NCBI RefSeq assembly: GCF_004168255.1
Contig: NZ_SEWG01000003.1
Location: forward strand, 372,001-436,000
Direction: 5' to 3'
DNA: 64,000 bases
DNA from: Mucilaginibacter terrigena
GTDB taxonomy: Bacteria; Bacteroidota; Bacteroidia; Sphingobacteriales; Sphingobacteriaceae
Both the position numbers and the translations under genes were made by a program. The notes under the pieces were generated by a model that was given only the letters and a program-made list of their open reading frames with translations, ran no database searches and had not been told where the DNA came from. This document shows, piece by piece, positions 25,403-30,550 of this stretch. Each line of letters starts with the position of its first letter. Within the stretch, counting starts at the first letter, position 1.

Positions 25403-26872
25403 ATGAGACTTTCTGTAGAACGAAAACCAATAAGAGTAAATCCCGATCCGAAGCGTGTAATTGCAAGATTTTTCTTTAACGGAAACGACAGGGCGAAAGA
25501 AGTTCTGCAACGTGTGATGGGTATTTCAGAAGATACCGCTTTTGGCATTGTATCACCTTTATTGCAGGAGTATTCTAAACGCCACCGTAATATTACCCGG
25601 GTATTAAACCGCCATTGCAGCAAGTTAAAGCCGCTTTTTAACGAATTGGGAATTGATTTTGATACGCTTACTGTGTACCGTAAGTTACTGATAGGGTCGT
25701 ACTTTACGCATGAATACTCTATTGAATCGGCCGCATTTTTTAACCCGTCTATTATTGAGGACCCCGACCAAACCGAGATGGAAGACGGGCAAAGGCGCGT
25801 TATTATCAGTTTTAGAGCGGTAGGCGAGGGGCACATCTCTTCAATTACGTTCCGCAGGGCGCTGATAGATAAGGATAACCAAATAACGGTTTTGCCTGCC
25901 GGCAGTTATATCGATGAGGCCGAAATTGTGCGAAACGCGGTTTACAATAAAAAACTGTTCCTTGAAAAAGCAGCCATCACCCAGATAAATATAAATGTAC
26001 TTAACGAACTGGAAGATAAGCTCGATCACCACTTTGAATACTCTAACCTACGCCGTATCATCCTCGACTCGCAGAAACTGCAGGAAAATGATATGATGCG
26101 GCTGGAATACGATAAAGTACTTTGGCTGGCCGATTCGTACTACGAAATCGTGTTTTCGCTGGATACCGATATCTCCGACAGGGTGATCTTCCCAATATCA
26201 GAATATGAGCGTAAGGGCATAGAAGATGCCCGCTTTGTTAAGTTTGTGAACGACGATGGCACATACGCTTACTATGCTACCTACACGGCTTACGACGGCT
26301 CGTTGATCATGCCTAAACTGCTGCAAACTACCGATTTTTACAACTTTAAAATAATGCCTTTATATGGTGCAGGGGCGCAGAACAAAAACCTGGCGCTGTT
26401 TCCTCGTAAAATAAACGGCAAATACGCTATGATCTCCCGTATCGATGGATGTAATAATTACATTATGTATTCGGATAAGATAAACATTTGGGAAAAACCC
26501 GTATTGCTGCAACAGCCTAAGTTTACCTGGGAGTTTGTACAGATAGGTAACTGCGGCTCGCCTATCGAAACCAAAGATGGCTGGATAGTAATAACCCACG
26601 GGGTTGGCCCAATGCGGCGCTACGTACTGGGTGCAAGCTTGCTTAAACTGGATGACCCAACTGTAGAAATTGGCCGTTTGAAGGAACCGTTATTAGTGCC
26701 AAACAGTGATGAGCGTGAAGGTTATGTACCAAACGTGCTGTACTCCTGCGGATCCATGATCCATAATAATAAGCTTATTATACCTTACGGAATCTCTGAT
26801 TCATCAACCTCGTTCGCCGAAGTTGACCTGGACGAGTTGCTGGCTAAGTTTAAGGAAGACGGGATAGATTAA
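25403..26872 (+). CDS. GH130 family beta-mannoside phosphorylase-like enzyme
   Basis: A 489-residue protein with the five-bladed propeller motifs of GH130: GIEDARFVKFVNDDGTYAYYATYTAYDG (E-D-x-R with the catalytic Asp), MISRIDGCNNYIMYSD, IGNCGSPIETKDGWIVITHG, MRRYVLGASLLKLDDPT and GYVPNVLYSCGSMI. GH130 enzymes phosphorolyse or hydrolyse beta-mannosides (beta-1,2 or beta-1,4). There is no signal peptide, so it acts in the cytoplasm. It converges on two coupled GT4 genes, suggesting that a mannose-containing oligosaccharide or glycogen-like store is made and broken down here. Confidence 0.88.
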   Translation: MRLSVERKPIRVNPDPKRVIARFFFNGNDRAKEVLQRVMGISEDTAFGIVSPLLQEYSKRHRNITRVLNRHCSKLKPLFNELGIDFDTLTVYRKLLIGSYFTHEYSIESAAFFNPSIIEDPDQTEMEDGQRRVIISFRAVGEGHISSITFRRALIDKDNQITVLPAGSYIDEAEIVRNAVYNKKLFLEKAAITQININVLNELEDKLDHHFEYSNLRRIILDSQKLQENDMMRLEYDKVLWLADSYYEIVFSLDTDISDRVIFPISEYERKGIEDARFVKFVNDDGTYAYYATYTAYDGSLIMPKLLQTTDFYNFKIMPLYGAGAQNKNLALFPRKINGKYAMISRIDGCNNYIMYSDKINIWEKPVLLQQPKFTWEFVQIGNCGSPIETKDGWIVITHGVGPMRRYVLGASLLKLDDPTVEIGRLKEPLLVPNSDEREGYVPNVLYSCGSMIHNNKLIIPYGISDSSTSFAEVDLDELLAKFKEDGID

Positions 26873-26915
26873 TTTAAGCTGAAAAGTAGCCGCACGTGGC
26901 GACAAAATTAACCAA

Positions 26916-27011
26916 CTTGTCATCCTGAACGCAGTGAAGGATCTAATGGAGAACTGTGCAATCGGCTACATGTATGGCGGTGAGATGCTTCACTAAGTTC
27001 AGCATCACAAG
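26916..27011. repeat. Dispersed inverted repeat, GTCATCCTGAACGCAGTG family
   Basis: Left arm TTGTCATCCTGAACGCAGTG and AAGGATCT face GATGCTTCACTAAGTTCAGC and ATCACAAG on the right. This unit fills the gap between the converging GH130 and GT4 genes and could act as a bidirectional terminator. Confidence 0.7.
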
Positions 27012-27017
27012 CGGCGA

Positions 27018-28022
27018 TTAGCCCAATATCTTCTCGTACAACTTAAAATAGTCCTCCGCCATTTTCTCTTTAGAGAATTGAGAACTGGCCCATTCGCGGC
27101 AATAGGCACGGTTTATTGAACCCAGCTGACCGGTCACATCTGCAGCCTCGTCAACAGTATTCACTAAAAAACCTGTTTTTTCATGCTGGATAAGTTCCGG
27201 CATCGAACCTTTATTGAACGCTATAACCGGCGTACCGCAAAGCATGGCTTCGGCAACGCTCATTCCAAACGGCTCGGCAAAATTTATGGGGTGTAATAGG
27301 GCCAGGGCGTTTCCTAAAAGCTCGTTACGTTTATCCGGGCCGGCGGGGCCAATGTACTCTATCTGGTCGCTCAGGTGTGGTTCTACACGGTCCTTAAAGT
27401 AATCCTCATCCTGAATAATGCCCGCAATGATCAGTTTTTTATTAGTTCTTTTAGCTATTTCAATCGCCTCTACCGGGCCTTTATCATGGTGGATACGGCC
27501 GAAGTAGAGCAGGTAGTCCTGCGGCTCTTCCGTAAATTTAAAATCTTTAGTGTCAAGTCCGTTATAAACTGTAGCTATGTAATCTAACTCATCTCTGCGG
27601 TCGGCATTGCTAATGGAAACATAATATCCGCGCGAATTATATTTTTTGTAAACCGGTATAATACGTGGCGACGAAAAACCATGTATAGTTGTTATCATCG
27701 GGGTATTAATAAGCGCAGTATAGGTAAGCGGCAAAAAATCAAAGTTGTTGTGTATTATGTCAAAATCGCTGGCTTGCTCCATCAGGTTGCTGATGTGCAG
27801 GCACTCCAGCACTTTTGCATCTTGTGTACGGTCTTCCTCGTAACCTTGTTTGCAAATGGATTGTAGTTTGCCTTCGGTGATCGAATCGCCGGTGGCAAAA
27901 AGGGTAACGTCAACGCCCAGTTTAATAAGTCCTTCGGCAATATTCGATGCAACCTGTTCCCAGGGACCATAGTGCCTGGGTGGTGTGCGCCAGGCAACGG
28001 GGGCTAAAATCGCGGCCTTCAT
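27018..28022 (-). CDS. GT4-family glycosyltransferase
   Basis: A 334-residue GT-B retaining glycosyltransferase. The N-terminal domain begins KAAILAPVAWRTPPRHYGPW with the acceptor-loop glycine region and TIHGFSSPRIIPVYKKY; the donor domain has LLYFGRIHHDKGP, and the nucleotide-sugar E-x7-E motif is EPFGMSVAEAM. GH130 stands opposite. Its ATG shares one base with the stop of the upstream GT gene (TAATG), so the two are translationally coupled. The frame extends six bases further to 28028. Confidence 0.88.
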   Translation of the reverse strand: MKAAILAPVAWRTPPRHYGPWEQVASNIAEGLIKLGVDVTLFATGDSITEGKLQSICKQGYEEDRTQDAKVLECLHISNLMEQASDFDIIHNNFDFLPLTYTALINTPMITTIHGFSSPRIIPVYKKYNSRGYYVSISNADRRDELDYIATVYNGLDTKDFKFTEEPQDYLLYFGRIHHDKGPVEAIEIAKRTNKKLIIAGIIQDEDYFKDRVEPHLSDQIEYIGPAGPDKRNELLGNALALLHPINFAEPFGMSVAEAMLCGTPVIAFNKGSMPELIQHEKTGFLVNTVDEAADVTGQLGSINRAYCREWASSQFSKEKMAEDYFKLYEKILG

Positions 28023-30298
28023 TAACACACTTTAACCTGTGTTTCCATCTTATTGTACTCGTATTCCAACTCGAAGGCTTTTAACACGGTAAGGTGCGAT
28101 ATCAGGTAGGCCAGTGTACTTTCGGCGCCCTGGTTACGGTTAATACCTGTAGGCAGCAATCCGTCGCAGCAGCCTTTGGTTTCATGGTCGTATAACGGTG
28201 CCCGCAGGGTGTTTTCGCCAAGGAACCATTTATAGCTCAGGAACATTTTTTCGATATACTGCGGTTTGCGGAAGATCTGGTAAGCCTGGAAATGCATCAG
28301 TACCATAGCCATGGTTTCGATGGCCTGCTGGTCGAACGTAGGGAACCTGCCACCGCGATAATACCATCCATCGTTACCAACCGGGCTTAAATAACCGTTG
28401 GATAAGGTCAGCTTATCTAAAAATGCCATGGTTTTAAGCGCTATATCCTTCGCTTTTTGGTTACCGGTGATCTCACATGAGTGCAGCAAGGCCAGCGGAA
28501 GGATGGCATTATCATAGGTCATACTTTCTTCAAACCATTCCCAATCATCAGACCGGGTGTTTTCGTAAGCATCAATTAAAGGCTGGGTTAAACGCACCAG
28601 TTCGGCAACCATACCTTCATCGGTAGGGAAGGCCTGCAGGTATAAAGCAATACCTATAATGGTATTTGCCTGCCCGCGGATGTGTTTTAATGCTTTAAAG
28701 TGCGGGTACGATTTATGGAAGATCTCCATCGCAAACTCGCGGTATGAATTACTTGCCGCGCAGCTGATCAAATGGCCCAATGCCCATATGGTACGCCCGA
28801 AAGAATCTTCGGAACCCACTTCATCCAGGTATTGCCTGCTAAAGCTTAAGAAATTACGGAAGTTACCATCATCCGTTTGCATGTAGTGAATGTAGCTTAG
28901 GTATATTGGCAATAATTTAAAAGCGTCGTTGCTTTTATTACGCTGATAAGCCATAAGCGCCATAATAAGCGCACGGGAGTTATCATCAAGGCAGTAACCC
29001 TCTTTTAAATTGGGGATGCCATATTTAGCGTGTTGCACAATACCGGTATCATCCGTTAAACGCATAACATGCGTAAGGCTGAATTTGGGCAATATCTCAG
29101 GGTCAACAATGCTGTTCTTTAATATTTTATCACTAAAGTCGTGGTTAGCGGCAGCTTCCTGGGCTACGCGTATAAATTCGGCGCCAATAACAGGCCAGCG
29201 TAAATGCAGGCCATATTCGTAAGCGTTTTCTTTTAATTCGTTAAGTGCAGCATCATCGTCTAATAGTTCGTTCACTATCTCGGCCAGCGCATCCGCATTT
29301 TTAAAATCAAATAAACGGCCTCGGCCATCATCCAGCAATTCGGTAGCGTGCCAGTATGGGGTTGATACTACTGCGGCTCCAGCGCCCACTGCATATGATA
29401 ATGTACCACTGGTAATTTGCGCTTCGTTTAAATAGGGTGTAACATATACTTCGGCAGCTGTAAGGTAATCAATCAGTTCATCCTCGGCCACAAATTTATT
29501 GATGAACGATAAATGCTGCGATACTTTTAACTGTGCCGCCAGCGATTTCAGGTGGTCGCGGTATTCCTCGCCCGAGTTTTTAATAACGCCCGGGTGTGTA
29601 TTGCCTAATACCACATACATAACATCGGGGTGCTTGGCTACAATCTGCGGCAATGCTTTTACAACGGTTTCTAAACCTTTGTTACGGCTTAATAGCCCAA
29701 ATGTTAATAATACACGATGGTTTTTAAACTGGCTTAAGCTTTTAACAGGGTTAACTTCCGGTTCTTCCACATCAGGCACACCATGCTCTATGATCTGTAT
29801 CTTTTCTGCAGGGATATCGTAAATGGTAGTCAGGAACTCTACCGCGCGTTTGCTCATCACGATGATCTTTGACGATTGCTCGGCAATTTCGCGGATGATG
29901 ATGCGCTGTACATAACTTGGGTCTTTAAGTATCGTATGCAGGATAGAGATCAGCGGTTTCTCTAAACGGTTTATCAAGGGTAAAATATAGATACCGCTTT
30001 CGCCACCATAAATGCCGAATTCGTGTTCTAAAATAACGGAGTCGACATTGCTTGTATTGATAAAATTAGCGGCGCGGATATAATCCTTTTGATGATTCTG
30101 GCGAATAACATATTTAACATGGGCCGGGTATTCATATTCCTGTAAATTCTCCGAATCGTTAAGGGCAACCACAAAGCCACCATCAAGCGGGCTTTTCCTG
30201 TCGGAAAAATTGGCGTTAATGGCGTTCATTAAATTATGGTTAAAGGTAGCGATCCCGCATTCGCGGGGAGGATAGGTTGATATGTATGCGATTTTCAT
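28022..30298 (-). CDS. GT4 glycosyltransferase fused to an alpha-helical C-terminal domain
   Basis: A 758-residue two-part protein. Residues ~1-395 are a GT4 enzyme (STYPPRECGIATFNHNL, EHEFGIYGGESGIYILPL, LTFGLLSRNKGLETVVKAL, PYLNEAQITSGTLSYAVGAG in place of the E-x7-E motif). Residues ~420-758 are helical with repeated aromatic/acidic words (GYCLDDNSRALIMAL, EWFEESMTYDNAILPLALL, DGWYYRGGRFPTFDQQAIET) like (alpha/alpha)6 glycosidase folds. ATG at 30298 is preferred over an extension to 30352 because it gives the normal MKIAYIS start of the fold. It is the first gene of the coupled GT pair. Confidence 0.85.
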   Translation of the reverse strand: MKIAYISTYPPRECGIATFNHNLMNAINANFSDRKSPLDGGFVVALNDSENLQEYEYPAHVKYVIRQNHQKDYIRAANFINTSNVDSVILEHEFGIYGGESGIYILPLINRLEKPLISILHTILKDPSYVQRIIIREIAEQSSKIIVMSKRAVEFLTTIYDIPAEKIQIIEHGVPDVEEPEVNPVKSLSQFKNHRVLLTFGLLSRNKGLETVVKALPQIVAKHPDVMYVVLGNTHPGVIKNSGEEYRDHLKSLAAQLKVSQHLSFINKFVAEDELIDYLTAAEVYVTPYLNEAQITSGTLSYAVGAGAAVVSTPYWHATELLDDGRGRLFDFKNADALAEIVNELLDDDAALNELKENAYEYGLHLRWPVIGAEFIRVAQEAAANHDFSDKILKNSIVDPEILPKFSLTHVMRLTDDTGIVQHAKYGIPNLKEGYCLDDNSRALIMALMAYQRNKSNDAFKLLPIYLSYIHYMQTDDGNFRNFLSFSRQYLDEVGSEDSFGRTIWALGHLISCAASNSYREFAMEIFHKSYPHFKALKHIRGQANTIIGIALYLQAFPTDEGMVAELVRLTQPLIDAYENTRSDDWEWFEESMTYDNAILPLALLHSCEITGNQKAKDIALKTMAFLDKLTLSNGYLSPVGNDGWYYRGGRFPTFDQQAIETMAMVLMHFQAYQIFRKPQYIEKMFLSYKWFLGENTLRAPLYDHETKGCCDGLLPTGINRNQGAESTLAYLISHLTVLKAFELEYEYNKMETQVKVC

Positions 30299-30550
30299 AG
30301 TTATATAGCAGAATGTGTTATTCCTGTTAGTGAGATACTTGCTGTTAAACAATTTTTAAATCTTACTGACCCGAAAAGTATGCACCAGTGACCTCAAAAA
30401 CAGTATTTACAGACCCGGGATGCATAAATTACATGGGTATCTATCATTGTGCATAAACTATACCAATAAAGCTTAAAGAGAAACCGTAACTTTCTTTTTA
30501 CAGTTAAATTATTAATTATAATTTAAAAACGAAAGAGATTAAAACCCAAA

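Follow-up and report, generated by a model that had tools for sequence, protein, structure and literature searches.

The GH130-GT4 locus

The stretch of DNA considered here (the window) comprises 64,000 nucleotides of the Mucilaginibacter terrigena genome and belongs to the third contig, C3, of a 4.28-Mb assembly. Within it lies a locus of three intact genes, delimited by open reading frames (ORFs) and profile searches, that encode a long-form GH130 protein and two GT4-type proteins, a small one (GT4s) and a large one (GT4L). As discussed in more detail below, relatives of these genes recur together in many phylum-level groups, and together they may serve to assemble and dismantle a mannose-containing oligosaccharide or small glycoconjugate.

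The GH130 gene is read from the forward strand (25403-26872, 489 amino acids) and its product scores 104.8 bits with PF04041 (cut-off 26). On the reverse strand, and convergent with it, lie GT4L (28022-30298, 758 amino acids from an ATG at 30298) and GT4s (27018-28022, 334 amino acids from an ATG at 28022); GT4s matches PF00534 with 87.9 bits and GT4L does so in its N-terminal half with 73.6 bits. That half (residues 1-395, 29114-30298) is a divergent GT-B domain of GT4 type, as its fold matches also indicate, while the remainder (residues 396-758, 28022-29113) corresponds to an unannotated (alpha/alpha)6-barrel domain recognised from a structural model, a fold match and conserved polar residues. 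The two reverse-strand genes meet in a TAATG junction (28022-28024) with a one-base overlap, the final A of the GT4L stop codon TAA being the first base of the GT4s ATG. Alternative in-frame starts exist for GT4s (a GTG at 28028) and for GT4L (a TTG at 30352, giving a longer product). The stop codons of GH130 and GT4s are 145 bases apart. The original prediction described just such a GH130 gene converging on TAATG-coupled GT4 and GT4-plus-helical-domain genes, and ORFs and profiles bear it out to the base. Inspection by eye, without a predictor, revealed no apparent signal peptide in any of the three proteins. Among the matches listed, the nearest named GT4L is that of Mucilaginibacter gilvus, at 91% identity.

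Linkage of the three genes

A neighbourhood search for GH130-GT4-GT4 sets had been named beforehand as the refuting test of the original prediction, and it uncovered wide co-occurrence, often with operon-like spacing. The Bacteroidota were sampled as an even draw of 296 genomes and searched for GT4L at an E-value of 1e-10. Some match was obtained in 97 genomes, mostly to other GT4 genes; by our reading of the matches GT4L itself is present in 55, including two in which it is split into two genes. Neighbourhoods were taken for 50 loci from 49 of these 55 genomes, the window apart. Five of the 55 genomes (G008, G058, G155, G170 and G025) are not represented among these neighbourhoods, G155 being covered around GT4s only, and a fragment match without GT4L (L086) was excluded. 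With 80 named loci, which lean to close relatives because they are the best 80 of at least 582 confirmed, and with the window itself, the collection totals 131 loci in stretches of up to 20 kb. Module genes were called in them by profile search over all six frames, and gaps between these genes were measured from domain end to domain end.

GH130 lies in the same stretch as GT4L at 110 of the 131 loci, GT4s at 55 and both at 51. The Bacteroidota loci have GH130 in 40 of 50 cases and GT4s in 13, and the named loci have GH130 in 69 of 80, GT4s in 41 and both in 38. There are five GH130 matches in the 4.28 Mb of the window's genome; at that density we calculate that about 2% of random 16-kb stretches would contain one. 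When neighbouring ORFs were clustered, the three families were found in 124, 106 and 54 loci, and the next most recurrent family in only 17. The arrangement seen in the window, in which GT4L is followed by GT4s and a long GH130 converges on them, is shared by 29 loci including the window, plus one in which GH130 is broken. Same-strand gaps are short: 60 bases or less between GT4L and GT4s in 30 of the 35 loci that have both in that order, and mostly under 60 bases (20 of 29) between GT4L and a short form of GH130. GH130 also appears in 24 of 27 recorded gene strings, some of which reflect fragments.

Whole-genome counts within the Bacteroidota sample point the same way. Close relatives of GT4s (57% identity or more, weaker relatives of 34-40% in other genomes being excluded) occur in 19 of the 296 genomes, and all 19 have GT4L; full-length long GH130 occurs in 31, of which 29 have GT4L. 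The two full-length cases without GT4L are G062 and G120, and a partial match to long GH130 is found in G064 and G158; in G062, G064 and G158 the GH130 adjoins a different GT4-like gene, about 420-430 residues in length. All told, the linkage of the gene set is real and wide, with its order shuffled, and we have high confidence that the module is a functional unit.

Related pairings turned up as well. Another family of GT4-like proteins, about 420-446 amino acids long and scoring 57-93 bits against the GT4L profile (L169:8111-9448, L170:5428-6714, L173:4834-6093 and L176:8106-9428), adjoins long and/or short GH130, also where GT4L is absent. An ORF of similar size beside GH130 (L055:5493-6782) has no Pfam match at 1e-5. 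In genome G003 (L167:5128-9372) GT4s adjoins a single GH130 and a 737-amino-acid tandem GH130-GH130 protein, and a similar double GH130 stands beside GT4s in L168.

Spread across phylum-level groups

Judging from the loci and the tree labels, GT4L is present in 15 phylum-level groups and has GH130 beside it in 14 of them, the remaining group being a single Lentisphaerota row on a 5.5-kb contig. By our tally all three genes stand together in 10 of the 15. A FastTree phylogeny of 79 GT4L rows, from which rows of 650 residues or less were excluded, shows 24 changes among 15 labels, where the minimum is 14 and the shuffled mean 35.2. The labels are clustered yet interleaved, and horizontal spread of GT4L is therefore likely, with contaminated bins and paralogues also possible given that many rows are metagenome bins. 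GT4L distances correlate with those of long GH130 (0.69), GT4s (0.79) and short GH130 (0.76), with 0 of 200 shuffles in each case.

The GH130 protein

The AlphaFold2 model of the long GH130 (mean predicted local distance difference test score, pLDDT, 88.8) is a five-bladed propeller to which a helical extension at the N-terminus (residues about 28-100) and a helical insert (residues about 183-244) are added. Its best fold match is the beta-1,2-mannobiose phosphorylase 7fir (Z 36.3, root-mean-square deviation (rmsd) 1.8, 282 residues aligned), with 5b0p at Z 36.1, Teth514_1788 at Z 35.8 and GH130 structures overall at Z 30.5-36.3. The residues of interest are the acid motif E274-D275, K328, R346, Q380 and H399. 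E274-D275 match the ED motif, D275 aligning with its Asp, and the D275 position is Asp in all 70 long forms having a letter there; in Uhgb_MP, Asp104 is the catalytic residue (PMC10619541). K328 aligns, in our alignment, with a Lys conserved in three compared beta-1,2 enzymes and with Lys199 of BT3780, named as a beta-1,2 determinant (PMC4599007). The position is Lys in 69/69 long forms, and in the short forms Lys in 36/52 and Arg in 16/52; R346 is Arg in 69/69 and H399 His in 70/70 long forms.

Phosphorylases of beta-1,2-mannobiose bind phosphate with three basic residues, whose columns we take to be 346, 399 and 380; of these, R346 and H399 are present in the window protein. The long forms have Gln at position 380 in 64/69 cases and Lys in 5/69, and the short forms have Lys in 40, Tyr in 7, His in 4 and Arg in 2 of 53. 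At this place the compared beta-1,2-mannoside phosphorylases have Lys or Arg, against Gln380 in the window, and phosphorolysis by the window GH130 is therefore uncertain. The protein also falls well short of the NCBIfam equivalog cut-offs (152 against 550 bits for NF050092, 135.8 against 450 for NF052550). Six short GH130 sequences, similarly compared, score best against the beta-1,2-mannobiose phosphorylase models (150-244 and 188-208 bits), again below the cut-offs. A beta-mannosidase or hydrolase of BT3780 type was considered for the window GH130 and rejected: the glutamates that replace the basic phosphate site in that type are absent and R346 and H399 are kept instead, the equivalence of Glu227 being that of our alignment. 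By its residues, then, the long form is a distinct GH130 branch and not a hydrolase of BT3780 type, and it is perhaps not a standard phosphorylase either.

The other GH130 genes of the same genome differ among themselves. One (L001:1192-2241, G000:C2) reaches 411 of the 550 bits of the beta-1,2-mannobiose phosphorylase model and has the usual basic phosphate-site residue; L002 is by eye of BT3780 type; the fifth match (L005, G000:C5:439240-439962) is GH130-like at 41 bits with one in-frame TAA. Plant beta-mannan utilisation was dismissed for the present locus, a separate GH130 elsewhere in the genome (L004) being followed by a gene that by eye resembles cellobiose 2-epimerase.

The two glycosyltransferases

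GT4s aligns with TeGSS, a UDP-glucose:sucrose alpha-1,2-glucosyltransferase (7fg9/8x3q), at 262 bits over residues 1-333. Its next-nearest relatives are tetrahydrobiopterin glucosyltransferases, and all of these, with TeGSS, are UDP-glucose enzymes. Residues Y18, R176, K181, E250 and E258 are kept in 54-55 of 55 sequences, E250 and E258 (54/55, one gap) forming an EX7E motif. Y18 (54/55, one gap) and R176 (55/55) are the equivalents of the catalytic Tyr18 and Arg179 of TeGSS, mutants of which have very low activity (PMC9909042). The Trp10 that stacks against fructose in TeGSS is Ala10 in GT4s (Ala in 48/55), and an invariant Trp follows one residue on. No sucrose-phosphate synthase scored above cut-off in the window's genome, and sucrose therefore appears an unlikely acceptor.

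The N-terminal domain of GT4L (residues 1-395) is modelled with fold matches to SPS (6kih, Z 35.4), MshA (34.7) and PimA (34.1), and phmmer matches it to PimA, MshA and PimB' at 31-39 bits. By fold it stands no nearer to PimA than to SPS or MshA, and the matches single out no donor sugar. The EX7E motif is common in GT4 but not universal. GT4L is without it and has at that place Q294, S297 and G298 in 127/127 sequences and Y302 in 120/127.

No Pfam match was obtained for the last 363 residues of GT4L even at an E-value of 10. In the model, an (alpha/alpha)6 barrel spans residues 404-747, with pLDDT mostly above 85 in 410-740, and the best fold match is YPO2471 of Yersinia pestis (7tem; Z 39.5, rmsd 2.5, 335 residues aligned), followed by AGE/cellobiose 2-epimerases (9l8i, Z 31.5; 3wkf, Z 31.4) and by GH76 and others of barrel type at about 29. 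Barrel residues D439, R442, D498, R541, W586, W588, Q658, D712, N722, E726 and S727 are invariant in all 127 sequences, and E590 is present in 123. An epimerase of AGE/cellobiose 2-epimerase type, which would have catalytic histidines, is one candidate for the barrel; no His of the barrel is invariant in the 127 rows, and two are conserved, H410 (122/127) and H423 (111/127). A barrel is encoded by a separate adjacent gene in L080, L081 and L142, the last a bin labelled Bathyarchaeota. Given its invariant, enzyme-like residues and its occurrence as a separate gene, the barrel probably has an enzymatic activity of its own.

Mannose genes and other neighbours

In one Firmicutes bin (L165) GT4s is followed in turn by a short GH130, a fusion of guanylyltransferase and phosphomannomutase, a long GH130, GT4L, GH77 and a gene of the alpha-amylase family, and in a Clostridiales bin (L162) a guanylyltransferase-isomerase-mutase fusion follows GT4L. 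Such fusions inside the module fit mannose recycling. A phosphomannose-isomerase-like gene precedes GT4L in L143, and L131 has a phosphoglucose isomerase. In the window's own genome the sole match to PF22640 (the guanylyltransferase beta-helix family) is on contig C1, and the window is on C3. Flanking genes were scanned for 76 of 147 non-Bacteroidota genes, picked by nearness and partly by earlier scan results, after 20 had been picked by eye; 25 of the 91 families were listed.

On the outside, the window locus is flanked by a 306-amino-acid ORF, for which NCBIfam gave no match, and by an acetylornithine-type aminotransferase. The 145-base convergent gap (26873-27017) contains an imperfect inverted repeat. 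As RNA it is predicted to fold into a long hairpin with imperfect pairing (-44.3 kcal/mol; z -2.41 relative to 200 shuffles), whose 24-base core pattern occurs once in the genome. An intergenic repeat family at 26919-26944 was ruled out, as the element occurs only once, both in the window and in the genome. The region has no excess of terminator-like sites (5, shuffle mean 5.8), and a promoter scan of it was uninformative (8 sites, 12.7 expected).

Comparison with known systems

The nearest precedent is a cluster of Thermoanaerobacter sp. X-514 (Teth514_1785-1796), proposed to salvage imported beta-mannosides (PMC4264767). There too, cytoplasmic GH130s stand beside genes for a GT4 and for mannose-1-phosphate guanylyltransferase, the same kinds of genes as in bins L162 and L165. 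Its GH130s, however, are described as serving import and salvage with an ABC transporter, and the part of the account drawn on here describes no GT4-(alpha/alpha)6 protein; the window, for its part, has neither transporter nor guanylyltransferase alongside.

Among individual proteins, the GH130 beta-1,2-mannobiose/oligomannan phosphorylases Teth514_1789, Lin0857 and Teth514_1788 share with the window GH130 the fold (Z 35.6-36.3), the ED motif, Lys328, Arg346 and His399. They differ in their 26-33% identity in structural alignment, and the window protein departs from them in its N-terminal extension, its helical insert and Gln380 in place of Lys or Arg. TeGSS aligns with GT4s over its full length and shares the catalytic equivalents, but differs in fructose-stacking Trp10 and in gene context. 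YPO2471 is the sole significant sequence relative of the GT4L barrel (E 4.9e-9), with DD and NxN/QGAEST motifs in common; unlike the barrel, it is annotated as a putative exported protein and lacks a glycosyltransferase fusion.

A functional parallel, should the interpretation below hold, is the mannogen of Leishmania, a beta-1,2-mannan of the cytosol that GH130-like propellers both make and recycle (PMC8950772). In Leishmania, by that account, GT108 mannosyltransferase-phosphorylases perform both steps themselves. The window GH130 fits a GT108 structure less well (6q50, Z 22.5) than it does GH130 structures (Z 36), and the bacterial module is known here from its genes.

What the module may do

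GT4 is a retaining family, whose members form alpha products from alpha-sugar nucleotides. GH130 enzymes, on the other hand, are inverting on beta-mannosides (PMC8950772, PMC4599007). The bond made by a GT4 enzyme is therefore not simply the bond that a GH130 recovers; rather, the product would carry both kinds of bond, or GH130 would make the beta part. The constant presence of the glycosyltransferases argues for synthesis plus turnover. We accordingly favour, at roughly even confidence, a mobile module of the cytoplasm whose enzymes build and break down a mannose-containing oligosaccharide or small glycoconjugate, and for which we infer the substrates, linkages, directions and the part played by the barrel. 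The product would be a mixed alpha/beta oligosaccharide that probably includes beta-1,2-mannose. GT4s and the GT4 domain of GT4L would add alpha-linked sugars to a common cell metabolite, with UDP-glucose and/or GDP-mannose as donors, and the (alpha/alpha)6 domain would trim, edit or otherwise process the product within the same polypeptide. The GH130 enzymes would take off beta-mannosyl units (probably beta-1,2), or attach them in the opposite direction, in exchange with alpha-mannose 1-phosphate, which mannose-1-phosphate guanylyltransferase would connect with GDP-mannose.

The closed cycle for making and recovering a beta-mannoside that the original prediction proposed thus stands in part. 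Gene co-occurrence and the presence of GDP-mannose-forming enzymes inside the module in two Firmicutes bins favour it; the opposed stereochemistry of GT4 and GH130, the use of UDP-glucose by the nearest characterised relative of GT4s and the doubt that Gln380 casts on phosphorolysis do not.

Several observations weigh against the reading of assembly and turnover. GT4L occurs without GH130 in the stretch at 21 of the 131 loci, of which three are short contigs (L103, L135 and L155) and four form a Planctomycetes GT4L clade (L136, L138, L139 and L144). Long GH130 stands apart from GT4L in the Flavobacterium-like g8 genomes, as does GT4s in G003. Distances of long and short GH130 correlate weakly with each other (0.36, 14 of 200 shuffles), and the distance correlations also track organism kinship. 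At the enzymatic level, the nearest relative of GT4s is a glucosyl- rather than a mannosyltransferase, and the window GH130 has Gln at the putative phosphate-site position. GDP-mannose genes account for only 2 of the 76 scanned flanking genes (within the 25 of 91 families listed), both known beforehand. As an aside on the Planctomycetes clade, GT4L of L144 stands beside NAD/Fe-S biosynthesis-like genes.

The leading alternative, which we consider rather unlikely, is that the module serves salvage only: the GH130s would phosphorolyse imported beta-mannosides to feed GDP-mannose, and the GT4 enzymes would spend GDP-mannose on an unrelated product. The Thermoanaerobacter cluster, with its two GH130 beta-1,2-mannoside phosphorylases, guanylyltransferase, GT4 and ABC importer (PMC4264767), provides a model for this, and sugar ABC importer genes (a solute-binding protein and two permeases, L055:1438-4395) lie directly upstream of the module in L055, and L066 has members of these clusters at the corresponding position. 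That said, no transporter family is among the first 25 of the 91 families listed for the 76 flanking genes, each with two members at most, and glycosyltransferase genes are the most constant part of the module (GT4L by selection, GT4s in 55 of 131 loci).

Somewhat less probable is a role in the cell envelope, in which GH130 would edit an oligosaccharide, lipid-linked or at the surface, that the GT4 enzymes would assemble. GT4 members are often active in envelope pathways, and the GT4L domain does resemble PimA and PimB', besides enzymes with soluble products. The neighbour clusters, most of them unannotated, nevertheless contain no recurring flippase, polymerase or membrane partner, and the closest solved relatives of GT4s use small soluble acceptors. 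We consider it improbable that the module produces a compatible solute, GT4s making an alpha-1,2-glucosyl osmolyte like the cyanobacterial glucosylsucroses that GT4L and GH130 would modify or recycle. The kinship of GT4s with TeGSS and its retention of the catalytic Tyr and Arg (PMC9909042) speak for this idea; the replacement of Trp10, with an invariant Trp lying one residue further on, and the lack of a sucrose-phosphate synthase above cut-off speak against it. Finally, an accidental neighbourhood, which could draw only on the 21 loci without GH130, has a negligible chance and is ruled out as a general account by gene co-occurrence, clustering and phyletic counts.

A bolder version of the reading of assembly and turnover, offered tentatively and as rather unlikely in its full form, is that the module makes a bacterial counterpart of mannogen. 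Its product would be a widespread cytosolic reserve or protectant oligosaccharide bearing beta-1,2-mannose, alpha-primed by GT4s and GT4L, with GT4L a bifunctional transferase that includes an (alpha/alpha)6 editing enzyme of a new type. Turnover would fall to a GH130 subfamily, possibly acting as a synthase or transferase and not as a phosphorylase. Searches of the open literature listed no description of a GH130-GT4L module. If assembly and turnover of such a mannoside is indeed the task of these genes, an intracellular mannoside metabolism would be common to numerous environmental bacteria in over a dozen phylum-level groups. Four linked enzyme families would run it, two forms of GH130 and two of GT4, all with candidate active sites and one of these in an unannotated domain. 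Uncharacterised GH130 enzymes would then find their place in making and turning over a glycan of the cell itself, and not in the breakdown of plant or yeast mannan.

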